Origin: Bacteroidia bacterium
Lineage (GTDB): Bacteria; Bacteroidota; Bacteroidia; Bacteroidales; VadinHA17
Direction of reading: 5' to 3'
NCBI GenBank assembly: GCA_026391595.1
Contig: JAPLDY010000094.1
Coordinates: 1-34,259, forward strand
Length of the DNA: 34,259 bases
The notes under the pieces are model-generated. The model had not been told where the DNA came from and searched no databases. It saw nothing but the letters and a program-made list of their open reading frames with translations. The position numbers and the translations under genes are program-made. The number at the start of each line of letters is the position of its first letter. Position 1 is the stretch's first letter. Positions 10,938-20,721 of the stretch are shown piece by piece.

Positions 10938-11036
10938 AAGAACTTACACAGAGTGACACAGAGGACCACAGAGATACACAGAGGTCAGACTCTGTGGCAC
11001 TCTGTGGTTCTCCGGATCTCCTCTGTGAAAGTTCTT
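10938..11036. repeat. Long imperfect inverted repeat made of CACAGAG heptamers at 10-bp spacing
   Basis: CACAGAG at 10947, 10957, 10967 and 10977. Inverted CTCTGTG at 10990, 11000 and 11021. Outer arms AAGAACTTACACAGAG and CTCTGTGAAAGTTCTT. Confidence 0.9.
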
Positions 11037-11047
11037 CATCTTTTTTA

Positions 11048-11824
11048 TTATAGATTAATAATACCGTCGAAGACAAAAGTAGCTGGTCCGGTAAGCCATA
11101 TATTGGTTACCTTTCCATCTGTCACCTTGAATTCCACTTTGAGATTACCACCCCTGGCCCTAACATTTACAGGAGCTGTGTCAAAATGTCCAGCCAGCAC
11201 TGAAGCAATGGCAGAAGCAGTTACACCTGTACCGCAGGCCAGTGTCTCTTCCTCGACGCCACGTTCGAAAGTTCTGAGATATAATCCATTATCATTTACT
11301 TCGACAAAGTTGACATTGGTTCCGCCAGGGGAGAATTTTGGAGACCACCTCAGTCTTTTTCCTTCTTCATTGACATCCATCCTGTCGATATCAATGGTAA
11401 ATACCACATAATGCGGTGATCCGGTATTTATAAAATAGCTGCCATCGATGATCTTATATTCATTCACGTCTGCCATCTGGAGGCGGACTATATCATCCAT
11501 TACTTCTGCCTCATGAATGCCATCGAAGGCAATGAATTTCTGATTATTGCCTGCTATATTCCATTTCCTTGCAAAATGGGCGGTGCATCTTCCTCCGTTT
11601 CCGCACATGGAACCGGGCTTTCCGTCGGAATTGAAATATTTCATCTCAAAGTCAGCCTTGTCATTACCGGAGATAAGGATAAGCCCGTCGGCTCCAATGC
11701 CAAAACGGCGGTCGCATAATCTGTTAATAAGATTTGAATCAGCGGGATTAAATGTACCCTTACGGTTGTCTATGATAATGAAATCATTACCCGCTCCCTG
11801 GTACTTGTTAAAAGTTACCTTCAT
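11048..11824 (-). CDS. dapF: Diaminopimelate epimerase
   Basis: 258 aa: KYQGAGNDFIIIDN, MCGNGGRCTAHFA and EETLACGTGVTASA carry the two catalytic Cys motifs. Confidence 0.96.
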   Translation of the reverse strand: MKVTFNKYQGAGNDFIIIDNRKGTFNPADSNLINRLCDRRFGIGADGLILISGNDKADFEMKYFNSDGKPGSMCGNGGRCTAHFARKWNIAGNNQKFIAFDGIHEAEVMDDIVRLQMADVNEYKIIDGSYFINTGSPHYVVFTIDIDRMDVNEEGKRLRWSPKFSPGGTNVNFVEVNDNGLYLRTFERGVEEETLACGTGVTASAIASVLAGHFDTAPVNVRARGGNLKVEFKVTDGKVTNIWLTGPATFVFDGIINL

Positions 11825-14808: not shown

Positions 14809-15552
14809 CTATTTTTTGTTGAACTTTCCGATAAATGCGTTTCTGAAGCTGTCTCCCAGTGAAGCTTTAAGGTTCTCTGAAAGAATTATTTCTCCCTGTC
14901 TCGTAAAACTCTGAATATGACTGAGATTCACCAAATAGGAGTGGTGGACCCTGATAATATTGTGTTCAACAAGAAGATCTTCATACTGCTTCAGGTTTTT
15001 GGAGCTGATAATCTTCCTGTCGCCTTCAAGATATAAATTGGTACAGTATCCGTCAGCTTTACACATAATTATTTCACTGATCTTCAACACCTCGAATCCC
15101 TTGATATTTGAGACCACAATTGTCGGTTGGAACGACATATTTTCGGAAAGGCTCTGGAGCAGCTCAGAAACTTTCTCATTGTCATAGCTCCATCTGTTCT
15201 CGTTTCTTATCTTGTCTACCGCAGCACTGAGCTCATCTATCTTTACCGGTTTAAGCAGGTAATCCGCCGCATTTACCCTGAAAGCTTTTATGGCATATTC
15301 AGAATAGGCAGTGACAAATATAACCCTGAAATTAATTTTACCGAACATCTTCAGGAGATCAAATCCCTTGCCATCGGGCATCTCAATATCGAGAAAGACG
15401 ACATCAGGATTATATTTCTGGATCACGCGGTGAGCTGATTTCACTGAAGATGCTGTAGCTACTACCTCAACATCATTGCAAAAATCCCTCAGGTAATTGC
15501 ACAGCACTTCCCTTGAAGGAGCTTCATCATCAACTACTACTGCTCTTATCAT
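14809..15552 (-). CDS. LytTR-family response regulator (REC plus LytTR DNA-binding domain)
   Basis: MIRAVVVDDEAPSREVL, VVFLDIEMPDGKGFDLL (phospho-Asp), YLLKPVKIDEL, and C-terminal LytTR region HNIIRVHHSYLVNLSHIQSF. Confidence 0.93.
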   Translation of the reverse strand: MIRAVVVDDEAPSREVLCNYLRDFCNDVEVVATASSVKSAHRVIQKYNPDVVFLDIEMPDGKGFDLLKMFGKINFRVIFVTAYSEYAIKAFRVNAADYLLKPVKIDELSAAVDKIRNENRWSYDNEKVSELLQSLSENMSFQPTIVVSNIKGFEVLKISEIIMCKADGYCTNLYLEGDRKIISSKNLKQYEDLLVEHNIIRVHHSYLVNLSHIQSFTRQGEIILSENLKASLGDSFRNAFIGKFNKK

Positions 15553-18500
15553 GCTGGTTGTGTTTATTTATTTTGACCGGTATATCTACTTCCACTCTGG
15601 TCCCTGTATCCTTCCTGTCAGTGTTGAGATCTGTAATCTCAAACTTATAATTTGTTCTTCTCAGTTTCCCTGTGATCTGCAATCGTTCTGTTATAATGTT
15701 AATGCCTTTAGGTTTGTGACTTCCGTCGGTCTCCCTGCTTTTCATGGAAGCAGTTCTTCCTATTCCGTCATCCTCGATTATGCACCTTAGTCCTTCATTA
15801 TCAGTGCGGACAAATTTAATGTTAATCATTCCCTTCCTTTTCTCAAGCGGTCTTACTCCGTGCCAGATGGCATTCTCAATAAAAGGTTGAACAATACCCG
15901 GACAAATCTCAGTGTCATTCATATTGTCAATCTCTGACGTTTCCAGATTATATTCAAATTTATCACCAAATCTGAGATGCTCTATCCGGAGATAATCCTT
16001 AAGGGATCTTATCTCATTTTCGAGAGGTATGAAGTCGGAACCCATGTTCGACAGAATCGATCGTATAAGTCTCGAAAAATCAGCGATATATCGGTTTGCT
16101 GATAACTTGTCGTTATTGGAAATGAAATAATTGATGGAATTCAGTGAGTTAAAGATAAAATGAGGGTTCATCTGGCTCCTTAGTGACTGGAGCTTAAGCT
16201 CATATTGTTTTGACCTCTCCCTTTGCTTTAACTGCTCTGTGTAAACTATTACTGAAAAAACAACTATCATTAATACTAACAGCGGCATCAGGATCCTGAA
16301 TATTCGTGTCTGATAGAAAGCAGGTTTTATCCTGATGACGATATCCCTTGATGCAGTCCAGTCGCCATTTTGATCTGCAGCCTCAATAATGAGATCATAC
16401 CAATCTGGTCTGAGGTTTGAATAATTAATATTCCGGTTTTGGGAACCTGTTTCAATCCATTTCTTGTTGACACCTGAAAGCTTGTACCTGTAATTTGTTC
16501 TGTCAGCGTTGATAAAGTCGGTTGAGGAAAAGGAAAGATGAAAATTATTCTCTCCCTTTGCCAGAATTATCGTATCGGTCTCATTTAATCCTTGCGGTAA
16601 ATTCCTTGTTTCACCTGATACCTCAAGATGCGTCAGCAGAAGTTTATTCTGAGTTGTTTCTTCTGATAATTGTATGCTATCGGGGTAGAACCTTATAAAT
16701 CCGCCCATTCCGCCGAAGAAAAATTCCCCGTCGTCTGCAATGAACTTAGCCCCTGAATTAAATTCTGAAATTGCAATTCCGTCAGTTTCATCAAATGCTC
16801 TGACATTTTCGGATTCCGGGTGTATCATGGATATGCCATCATTGGTTGAGACCCAGATATGACCTGATTTGTCCTTTAGCAGACTGTAGGTCGTATTATT
16901 CGATAATCCTTTCGAGGTAGTATAATATCTTGTGGCGCCGGTAACAGTATTGTACCTGCATACTCCCTTTCCCAGGAGGGCCAGCCAGAGATCTCCATCT
17001 TCGCCTTGTATTATATCTTCAACGTTGCATATTCCAGAAGCAATTTTAATTTCAGATCCTTCCCTGGTTAATGTGTTATATTTAAGTAATTTACTTTCAG
17101 ACATTCCGCCCCATATAATCCCTGATGTGTCGGCATAGAGCTTAAAGATACCATTTGCCTCAGGAGACTTCCAGAGGATCTCCGTTTTTCCGGTCCCGGG
17201 ATTGTATATTGAAAGGTTATTGGTTCCTATATAAACATTACCTTCACTGTTGACAGCAATTGCCCTGAAACTTCTGGCTTCCGCATGGTGCTTCACAAAG
17301 ATACCTGTACTATAATCATAGAACTGCAACAGATTCATGAGATAACCTATCCAGATCCCATCGTTTACCGGTATCATAGATCTTATATAAGCTGCCGAGT
17401 CAATAATTTTCTGCGAAATAAAATCTGTACCCGAAACTGAATTGCCTGCTCCAAACTGAAGTATATGATCATAACTTCTTATTCCTGTCCATATTTTTCT
17501 TTCCCTGTCCATTATCACGGAATAGACAGCAGGACTGGTAGAGTCGGAGGAGGTGATAAGCGTGTTTTTGAAAGATCCCGGGATGAAAGCAACTCTTGAA
17601 ACTCCGAGAGTCACGCCGCCTGATGTTGAATTCGAAAACCAGAAGGAATATTTCCTGTCAGGCAAAATGGCCGTCGGCCATTTTGCCTGATGGTCAGGAA
17701 TATATGTCAGTTTTTTATTAGCCTGATTATAAAAATATATACCGTCGTTTCTTTTTCCCCAATAGAAATAATCTCTGCCAGTGAATTCATTTTCAGGGAT
17801 TGTCTCCGTGTATTCTCTGAAAATGCCGCTTGCTTCATTGAGCTTGAAAAGGCCGTTGTTAGAGAAAAGCCATTTGTTGCCGCACAGCGATAAGTAAAAT
17901 GATCGCCATATTAGGGATTCGAAATAGGTTTTGGGTACATTGATGGTTTTTTCTACCTGATACTCTCTGAATAAATGGTATTCGTTTATTTCGCTTTTCC
18001 TGAATTCACTCACCAAGGTTCCGGCCATCCAGATTACGGAATCACCAGCCATTGTAAGCCAGGTCTTCGGATCTTTAATGATGTAAGGTTTATTGTCCTT
18101 CCCGGTCAGTTTTAACACTGTCAGCTCCTTCTTTACAGGATCCATTTTAATAATGCTGCTTAGACCGGTTATCAGAAGATTCCCTGACTGGTCTGTGGAA
18201 ATATTATTCACATAGCCAATATGTAAACCATCGATAGCCTTCATAGTTTGAAAATCATCAGTACCGCGGTTGTATTTCACCAGCTCTCTCGTATCGGTAA
18301 ATATCCAGAGATTATTAACCCCGTCAACCAACAGCTCAGATATAGAAAAAAATGGTATTGAAGTGGAATCATCCGGTTCATGAAAATAGTTCCTGAATGA
18401 ATGCCCGTCGAACCTGCTTAAACCGTCCCATGTACCCAGCCAAAGGAATCCTGAACTGTCCCTGGCAATGGCTCTGACATTATTATGCGGCAGTCCGTCG

Positions 18501-18616
18501 GCAGTAGTATATGACTTTATGGTGAAATTCTGGGAGTATATATTTACTATTGAAACCAGTAAGCCGGCAATCAGAAAATATAGTGACGGGAAAAAAGATT
18601 TACTTTTCCTGAACAT
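15530..18616 (-). CDS. Sensor kinase: two-component regulator propeller repeats, Y_Y_Y domain, TM, LytS-type histidine kinase
   Basis: 1028 aa: signal peptide, propeller repeats (DSSGFLWLGTWDGLSRFDG, DKSGHIWVSTNDGISM), Y_Y_Y-like YRYKLSGVNKKWIETG, QMNPHFIFNSLNSINYFI, IIEDDGIGR. Confidence 0.93.
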   Translation of the reverse strand: MFRKSKSFFPSLYFLIAGLLVSIVNIYSQNFTIKSYTTADGLPHNNVRAIARDSSGFLWLGTWDGLSRFDGHSFRNYFHEPDDSTSIPFFSISELLVDGVNNLWIFTDTRELVKYNRGTDDFQTMKAIDGLHIGYVNNISTDQSGNLLITGLSSIIKMDPVKKELTVLKLTGKDNKPYIIKDPKTWLTMAGDSVIWMAGTLVSEFRKSEINEYHLFREYQVEKTINVPKTYFESLIWRSFYLSLCGNKWLFSNNGLFKLNEASGIFREYTETIPENEFTGRDYFYWGKRNDGIYFYNQANKKLTYIPDHQAKWPTAILPDRKYSFWFSNSTSGGVTLGVSRVAFIPGSFKNTLITSSDSTSPAVYSVIMDRERKIWTGIRSYDHILQFGAGNSVSGTDFISQKIIDSAAYIRSMIPVNDGIWIGYLMNLLQFYDYSTGIFVKHHAEARSFRAIAVNSEGNVYIGTNNLSIYNPGTGKTEILWKSPEANGIFKLYADTSGIIWGGMSESKLLKYNTLTREGSEIKIASGICNVEDIIQGEDGDLWLALLGKGVCRYNTVTGATRYYTTSKGLSNNTTYSLLKDKSGHIWVSTNDGISMIHPESENVRAFDETDGIAISEFNSGAKFIADDGEFFFGGMGGFIRFYPDSIQLSEETTQNKLLLTHLEVSGETRNLPQGLNETDTIILAKGENNFHLSFSSTDFINADRTNYRYKLSGVNKKWIETGSQNRNINYSNLRPDWYDLIIEAADQNGDWTASRDIVIRIKPAFYQTRIFRILMPLLVLMIVVFSVIVYTEQLKQRERSKQYELKLQSLRSQMNPHFIFNSLNSINYFISNNDKLSANRYIADFSRLIRSILSNMGSDFIPLENEIRSLKDYLRIEHLRFGDKFEYNLETSEIDNMNDTEICPGIVQPFIENAIWHGVRPLEKRKGMINIKFVRTDNEGLRCIIEDDGIGRTASMKSRETDGSHKPKGINIITERLQITGKLRRTNYKFEITDLNTDRKDTGTRVEVDIPVKINKHNQHDKSSSS
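17648..17703. repeat. Intragenic palindrome: 33-nt perfect core inside an imperfect inverted repeat
   Basis: TCAGGCAAAATGGCCG-T-CGGCCATTTTGCCTGA (17658-17690, 16-bp arms, 1-nt centre). Flanked by ATATTTCCTG (17648-17657) and CAGGAATAT (17695-17703). Confidence 0.92.
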
Positions 18617-18705: not shown

Positions 18706-20721
18706 ATGGATTTTAAACTGGTATCAGATTTCGTTCCGACCGGCGATCAGCCTGAAGCTATCGAACAGCTTGTTGACGGGCTTCAAAAGAATGTTCCTTT
18801 CCAGACCCTGCTTGGTGTTACAGGTTCGGGGAAGACATTTACGATCGCAAACGTCATTGAGAAGGTTAACAGGCCGGTTCTGGTACTAAGTCACAACAAG
18901 ACTCTGGCCGCACAACTCTATGGTGAATTCAGACAGTTTTTCCCTGAAAACTGCGTCGAATATTTCGTTTCATATTATGATTATTACCAGCCCGAAGCGT
19001 ATCTTCCCGTTTCCGATACCTATATTGAAAAGGATCTTTCAATAAATGAGGATCTTGAAAAACTGAGGCTCAGCGCTACTTCATCCCTTCTTTCCGGAAG
19101 GAAAGATGTCATAGTAGTATCTTCTGTATCATGTCTTTATGGCATAGGCAATCCTGATGATTTTCATTCCAGCACTGTTCAGGTCGTAAAAGGACAGAAC
19201 ATTGCAAGGAACTATTTTCTGAGGAAGCTGGTGGATAGTCTTTACTCCCGGAATGAGATGGAATTCAGACATGGCACCTTCAGGGTAAGGGGCGACACAG
19301 TAGATATATTCCCGGCTTATGCCGACATAGCTGTAAGAGTAATTTTCTTCGGAGATCAGATAGAAGAGATAAACACCTTCGATCCGGTCAGCGGGAACAG
19401 GCTGGAGGTTCTGAACGATTATGTCATCTATCCTGCGAATATTTTTGTAACCACCCGCGACAGGATAAATCAGGCAATAAGTTTCATACAGGATGATCTT
19501 GTTCGACAGGTGACTCATTTCAATGAGATCGGAAAAAAAGAAGAGGCAAAACGGCTTGAACAAAGAGTTTCCTATGATCTTGAGATGATCAAGGAACTTG
19601 GTTATTGCAGCGGGATCGAAAATTATTCCCGTTATTTTGACGGCCGGAAACCGGGGACAAGGCCTTTCTGCCTGCTCGATTACTTCCCGGATGATTTCAT
19701 TACCGTAATTGACGAGAGTCATGTAAGCATCCCACAAATCAGGGGAATGTCCGGAGGTGATCATTCACGCAAGCAGACTCTTGTGGAATTTGGATTCCGC
19801 CTTCCCGCAGCCCTCGACAACAGGCCGATGCGAATCGAAGAGTTCGAGTCACTTACCGGCCAGATAATATTCGTAAGCGCCACCCCGGCTGATTATGAGC
19901 TGGAGAAGAGCGAAGGAGTGTATGTCGATCAGGTGATACGTCCCACAGGTCTCCTGGACCCACCGATAGAGGTCAGGCCAAGTCTTAACCAGATCGATAA
20001 CCTTATGGATGAGATCAGGGAGAGGGCAAAGGCAGGAGAGAGAACACTTGTGACTACAATTACCAAGCGTATGGCAGAGGAGCTGACTACCTATCTGCTG
20101 AGATTTGATATAAGGTGCCGCTACATCCATTCGGACATTGATACAATAGAACGGATTGAGATAATGGAAGGATTGCGGATCGGTGCCTTTGATGTACTTG
20201 TAGGTGTCAACCTTCTGAGAGAAGGACTTGATCTGCCTGAGGTTTCACTGGTGGCTATACTCGATGCTGACAAGGAGGGGTTCCTTAGATCTTCAAGGGC
20301 GCTTACCCAGACAGCAGGAAGGGCTGCCCGCAACCTTAATGGCAAGGTTATAATGTATGCCGATACTGTTACCGGAAGCATGCAACTGACAATTAATGAG
20401 ACAAACAGGCGCCGCGAAAAGCAGCTGAAATACAATGAGGCTATGGGCATAACCCCTGCACAGATCGTCAGAAAGACAGGCTCAGCACTTACAGGGCTGA
20501 CCAGGAAAGGCGTTTCCGTAAAGGCATATTTTGAGCCTGAGCGTCCTGATATTGCTGCAGATCCTGTTATTAAGTATATGAACAGCGAAGCTCTTCAAAA
20601 GACAATTGAGAAAACCAGGAAAAGCATGGAAAAAGCCGCTTCAGAGCTTAATTTTGTCGAAGCGGCCAGGTTCAGGGATGAGATGGCTGATCTCCAGAAG
20701 CTGCTCAGAAGTAAAAGCTGA
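18706..20721 (+). CDS. uvrB: Excinuclease ABC subunit B
   Basis: 671 aa: FVPTGDQPEAIEQLVDGL, LLGVTGSGKTFTIANVI (Walker A), YFVSYYDYYQPEAYLP, LVGVNLLREGLDLPEVSLVAILDADKEGFLRS, C-terminal UVR motif. Confidence 0.97.
   Translation: MDFKLVSDFVPTGDQPEAIEQLVDGLQKNVPFQTLLGVTGSGKTFTIANVIEKVNRPVLVLSHNKTLAAQLYGEFRQFFPENCVEYFVSYYDYYQPEAYLPVSDTYIEKDLSINEDLEKLRLSATSSLLSGRKDVIVVSSVSCLYGIGNPDDFHSSTVQVVKGQNIARNYFLRKLVDSLYSRNEMEFRHGTFRVRGDTVDIFPAYADIAVRVIFFGDQIEEINTFDPVSGNRLEVLNDYVIYPANIFVTTRDRINQAISFIQDDLVRQVTHFNEIGKKEEAKRLEQRVSYDLEMIKELGYCSGIENYSRYFDGRKPGTRPFCLLDYFPDDFITVIDESHVSIPQIRGMSGGDHSRKQTLVEFGFRLPAALDNRPMRIEEFESLTGQIIFVSATPADYELEKSEGVYVDQVIRPTGLLDPPIEVRPSLNQIDNLMDEIRERAKAGERTLVTTITKRMAEELTTYLLRFDIRCRYIHSDIDTIERIEIMEGLRIGAFDVLVGVNLLREGLDLPEVSLVAILDADKEGFLRSSRALTQTAGRAARNLNGKVIMYADTVTGSMQLTINETNRRREKQLKYNEAMGITPAQIVRKTGSALTGLTRKGVSVKAYFEPERPDIAADPVIKYMNSEALQKTIEKTRKSMEKAASELNFVEAARFRDEMADLQKLLRSKS

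Follow-up and report, generated by a model that had tools for sequence, protein, structure and literature searches.

The window, by which we mean the whole 34,259 nt stretch of DNA analysed here, belongs to a draft Bacteroidales genome of 3.64 Mb in 265 contigs. It carries on the minus strand a CDS of 1028 aa (15530..18616), recognised by its open frame, its Pfam matches and its relatives, with a Reg_prop sensor region, a Y_Y_Y domain and a LytS-type His_kinase domain. Named relatives of this protein come mainly from the Bacteroidales and other Bacteroidota. Downstream, the ORF of a LytTR-type response regulator (14809..15552, minus strand; Pfam Response_reg and LytTR) overlaps the 3′ end of the kinase gene and is its probable partner, whilst the divergent uvrB (18706..20721, plus strand; Pfam UvrB domains) lies upstream and served as an orthology check on relatives.

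Within the kinase gene, and in frame with it, lies a perfect palindrome of 33 nt (17658..17690) with 16-bp arms and a 1-nt centre, reading TCAGGCAAAATGGCCG-T-CGGCCATTTTGCCTGA and encoding residues H309-D320, HQAKWPTAILPD. In the mRNA the 5′ arm TCAGGCAAAATGGCCG corresponds to 17675..17690 and the 3′ arm CGGCCATTTTGCCTGA to 17658..17673, both on the minus strand. On re-reading, the palindrome was exactly as a preliminary description had given it, and so were the outer arms that extend a broken symmetry over 17648-17703: ATATTTCCTG (17648..17657) pairs imperfectly, with a 1-nt bulge, with CAGGAATAT (17695..17703), and TGGT (17691-17694) stands between the latter and the perfect palindrome. A fold of the mRNA, proposed there as a check, gave a very stable hairpin, with an energy of -36 kcal/mol over 91 nt and z = -7.6 relative to dinucleotide shuffles. 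The same description had placed the palindrome in a sensor-kinase CDS, which is right, and between propeller repeats, which is plausible, although Pfam gives only one Reg_prop stretch, at residues 41-64.

As a null model we used 150 synonymous-codon shuffles, preserving each protein and its codon usage, of 520 long ORFs of this genome (854,769 nt). In the ORFs themselves the longest perfect short-spacer arm is the 16 bp of the palindrome, followed by arms of 13 and 12 bp. The shuffles yielded arms of at least 12, 13, 14 and 15 bp at 0.59, 0.15, 0.027 and 0.007 per replicate and no arm of at least 16 bp. By extrapolation, about 0.001-0.003 arms of 16 bp are expected per 854,769 nt of CDS, roughly 0.01 per genome and about 1e-4 for the window, in agreement with the earlier statement that such an arm is very unlikely by chance in the window. 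The palindrome is locally improbable, yet across hundreds of genomes chance alone would produce some. In CDS, perfect arms of 11 bp or more modestly exceed expectation, although the cases are few (6 versus 2.5 in this genome, 7 versus 2.5 in other Bacteroidota).

Sequence sampled from the host genome amounted to 1.3 Mb, and we sought further copies of the palindrome. Neither in this genome nor in 145 relatives did BLAST or mismatch patterns recover a second copy, and the 27-nt core had no other occurrence there with up to three mismatches; the mismatch search suggested in the preliminary description therefore added no copy. Distant BLAST against plasmid and phage collections returned chance 20-nt matches only. 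The 16-nt arm was found in 8 IMG/VR contigs, about the number that we would estimate from chance for a 16-mer, given the size of the collection. Rfam gave no match in the window.

For comparison at the site we used 15 relatives from same-genus and same-family genomes, all extant sequences, at 34-60% protein identity. Most of these are orthologues, since uvrB adjoins the gene in 14 and the LytTR regulator in 12. No gap interrupts any of the 15 alignments at the palindrome site, each of the residues 306-321 recurs in one or more of the relatives, and within the site the identity (0.42-0.58 in L004, L005, L006 and L008) is similar to that of the flanks. Therefore, nothing has been inserted at the site, and the alignment of kinases that had been proposed as a search for an insertion revealed no gap. 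Likewise, the small palindromic element put forward in the preliminary description is contradicted by a single-copy sequence whose residues occur in gap-free relatives, and a repetitive element of REP-like or MITE-like kind can be rejected on the same grounds, the palindrome standing in one place only and adding no DNA relative to the 15 relatives. These residues are encoded in relatives without a palindrome, and no other copies exist, which is the outcome that the preliminary description had set as refuting a special element.

The hairpin itself is private to this lineage among the sequences compared. Relatives pair at just 2-8 of the 16 arm positions, and in all 15 the hairpin is absent, with no stem above the synonymous-codon null. 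The closest relative (L004) has no quasi-palindrome beyond its own synonymous-codon null; it matches 14 of 16 nucleotides in the 5′ arm and 9 of 16 in the 3′ arm. A conserved structured RNA is thus rejected, no structure being retained in the 15 relatives and Rfam being without a match.

Much of the pairing is nevertheless imposed by the protein. Some residues, W-P and A-I among them, are complementary by coincidence, so that the amino acid sequence and local codon usage lead one to expect 9.46 of the 16 pairs; the probability of all 16, given the protein and independent synonymous codon choice, is 9e-6. The missing pairs largely come from rare codons in the 3′ arm, namely ACG (0.11 of the use of its amino acid) and TTG (0.07). 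Ranked by codon commonness among the six-codon windows of the gene, the 3′ arm falls in the lowest 1.8%, whilst the 5′ arm, built of common codons, stands at the 94th percentile.

Taken together, these data suggest that the palindrome is probably a lineage-private, nearly neutral product of mutation, in which a quasi-palindrome imposed by the protein was perfected, most likely by template switching. The starting state would have been an imperfect inverted repeat forced by the protein sequence. At such a repeat DNA polymerase may switch templates and copy one arm from the other, which would leave a perfect palindrome; here the 5′ arm of the mRNA could have been the template for correcting the 3′ arm. 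Codon rarity suggests this direction. Residue sharing does not settle it, because L006 also has the 3′-arm residues A-I-L-P-D, L008 has them with a single change, and others come near to them. Judging from the aligned sequences, both arms were probably near their present state before the event. Since both arms encode residues seen in relatives, it is unlikely that one arm was rewritten as a whole, and only a correction of a few bases fits. Two features expected of a template-switch product are seen, a 16-bp inverted repeat around a 1-nt centre and relatives that have no perfect repeat and no indel; that L004 shows no quasi-palindrome beyond its null counts against the reading. We infer the event from distant relatives, a comparison that includes no intermediate, because the genomes searched, among them 61 other genomes of the genus, contained no relative above 60% protein identity, and that does not demonstrate a single multi-base event. 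Of the four origins named in the preliminary description, template switching is the best supported.

Chance is the main rival to quasi-palindrome correction. Ordinary drift of codons and residues would here have produced the 16 pairs, which became conspicuous as many windows were read. The protein already supplies about 9.5 of the 16 pairs, and at roughly 0.01 expected per genome some would turn up in hundreds of genomes scanned. However, the low probability given the protein, the lack of any 16-bp arm in the 150 shuffled versions of the 855 kb of CDS, the concentration of rare codons in one arm and the continuation of the symmetry by the outer arms all speak against drift, and we consider it rather unlikely as the origin of this palindrome.

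The genus also carries long palindromes between genes. These are composites in which GAATGACA is followed, after about 15-20 nt, by a long near-perfect palindrome and, after about 15-20 nt more, by TGTCATTC, the flanks being inverted. Their arms are mostly 15-25 bp, purine-rich and different in sequence between copies. The pattern matches in 19 of 42 genomes of the genus (the host and 18 of 41 others), with 12 matches in the host and 39 in the genome G010. Host copies include L142:6094-6192, L140:3999-4099, L155:1593-1690, L202:14045-14146, L229:1876-1974 and L238:2446-2548, and same-genus copies include L269 and L278. A limited literature search found no paper describing the GAATGACA/TGTCATTC composite, which looks more interesting than the coding palindrome. 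A link to RAYTs was rejected, in that Y1_Tnp genes are present but the loci of those examined are without such flanks. Four copies in G010 (L285, L286, L287 and L288) share one palindrome and near-identical flanks, the 75-nt left flanks being identical, and carry the spacer in either orientation, with a central TTGA or TCAA (CTTGAG versus CTCAAG). Such a spacer inversion is known from template switching between arms (PMC8604942) and lends support to that reading, though recombination between arms could also yield it. A genus with many long, spacer-flipping palindromes would be a good natural system for studies of bacterial template switching.

Other palindromic sequences were seen alongside. 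A second intergenic family of the host, about CCCCCTTCTCTCCGCCARCTGGCGGARAGARGGGGG, occurs at L124:19302-19337, L142:9521-9556, L198:9010-9047 and L125:12861-12896, and a repeated hairpin of the host, CTCTGTGTAAGTTCTT...AAGAACTTACACAGAG, at L140:9554, L192:3466, L224:16130 and L235:5978. In the window, CACAGAG/CTCTGTG repeats lie at 10947-11012, where an overlapping ORF (10953-11411) has no Pfam match. Runs of N are found at or beside palindromes at L217:10868-10884, G025:C8:51334-51440 and G010:C7:439549-439645, with NN central in the latter two; the palindromes may have led to assembly gaps or to masking there.

The coding palindrome could have been left by whatever process generates the intergenic ones: palindromes would form unusually often in this lineage and now and then be written into a gene, the protein remaining acceptable. 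We regard this proposal as improbable. Membership of the GAATGACA/TGTCATTC family itself was rejected, the coding palindrome being without the flanks and without any gain in length and its resemblance being weak (P 0.004-0.03, post hoc). The flank words are confined in the window to positions 15913 and 24672.

A function for the hairpin, as a lineage-specific mRNA structure or DNA operator that might, for instance, slow translation or transcription of the kinase and the regulator behind it, is quite improbable. Its stability is high, but it is missing in all 15 relatives, has no second copy and hence no regulon, has no Rfam match and lies deep within the CDS at codons 309-320. The regulatory mRNA hairpin of the preliminary description is thus unsupported, no relative having kept it. 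That a palindromic element was inserted or template-copied here, with the intergenic composites as a possible source, is likewise very improbable. The core does resemble some intergenic palindromes, such as GAGGCGGAATGGCTGCTGGCCATTCCGCCTC in G037; tests made after the resemblance had been noticed gave P 0.016-0.028 for the best score and P 0.004-0.010 for the top five. Against this, the length is unchanged and the residues are the same as in relatives, the GAATGACA/TGTCATTC flanks are absent, and the DNA is nearly fixed once the protein and perfect pairing are given, so that the resemblance can be coincidence. An assembly artefact, by a fold-back chimera or mis-joined reads, might be entertained for a draft in 265 contigs, but with an intact frame, the same length as in 15 relatives, normal residues and a site in mid-contig it is very improbable.

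In summary, the palindrome is confirmed and is most likely an ordinary feature, a new case of a known process. Read as quasi-palindrome correction, it illustrates on a small scale that a long, perfect and very stable hairpin can arise within a gene by mutation alone, with neither a mobile element nor a regulatory role, and it cautions that not every coding palindrome is an element. REP elements of the GTAG and CGTC families are also short palindromes that occasionally lie within genes, but they form repeated families with an unpaired end tag (PMC3733652), whereas the palindrome here is single-copy. In the mitochondrial coding palindromes of Nematomorpha (PMC6649704), as here, both arms code for residues present in relatives; those palindromes are numerous, reach 284 bp and in some cases fill the same site in all four species, in contrast to the single 33-nt case described here. 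In yeast (PMC8604942), a 5-bp coding inverted repeat in REG2 became a perfect one of 16 bp, and inversion of the spacer where the arms are identical is recognised as a sign of template switching. The arm-homogenised yeast repeats resemble our case as perfect repeats in a CDS of one lineage, with the same arm length in REG2, although there strains and parental nodes revealed the event directly and here there is no close relative. Quasi-palindrome correction, for which PMC6649704 cites van Noort et al. (2003), is known from E. coli, where template switching perfects quasi-palindromes at the thyA hotspot and in lacZ reporters (PMC7202029). The event was observed there and is deduced here from distant relatives, and the arm is long for the coding DNA of this genome; in both, an imperfect repeat is made perfect, and neither an element nor a net insertion is involved.
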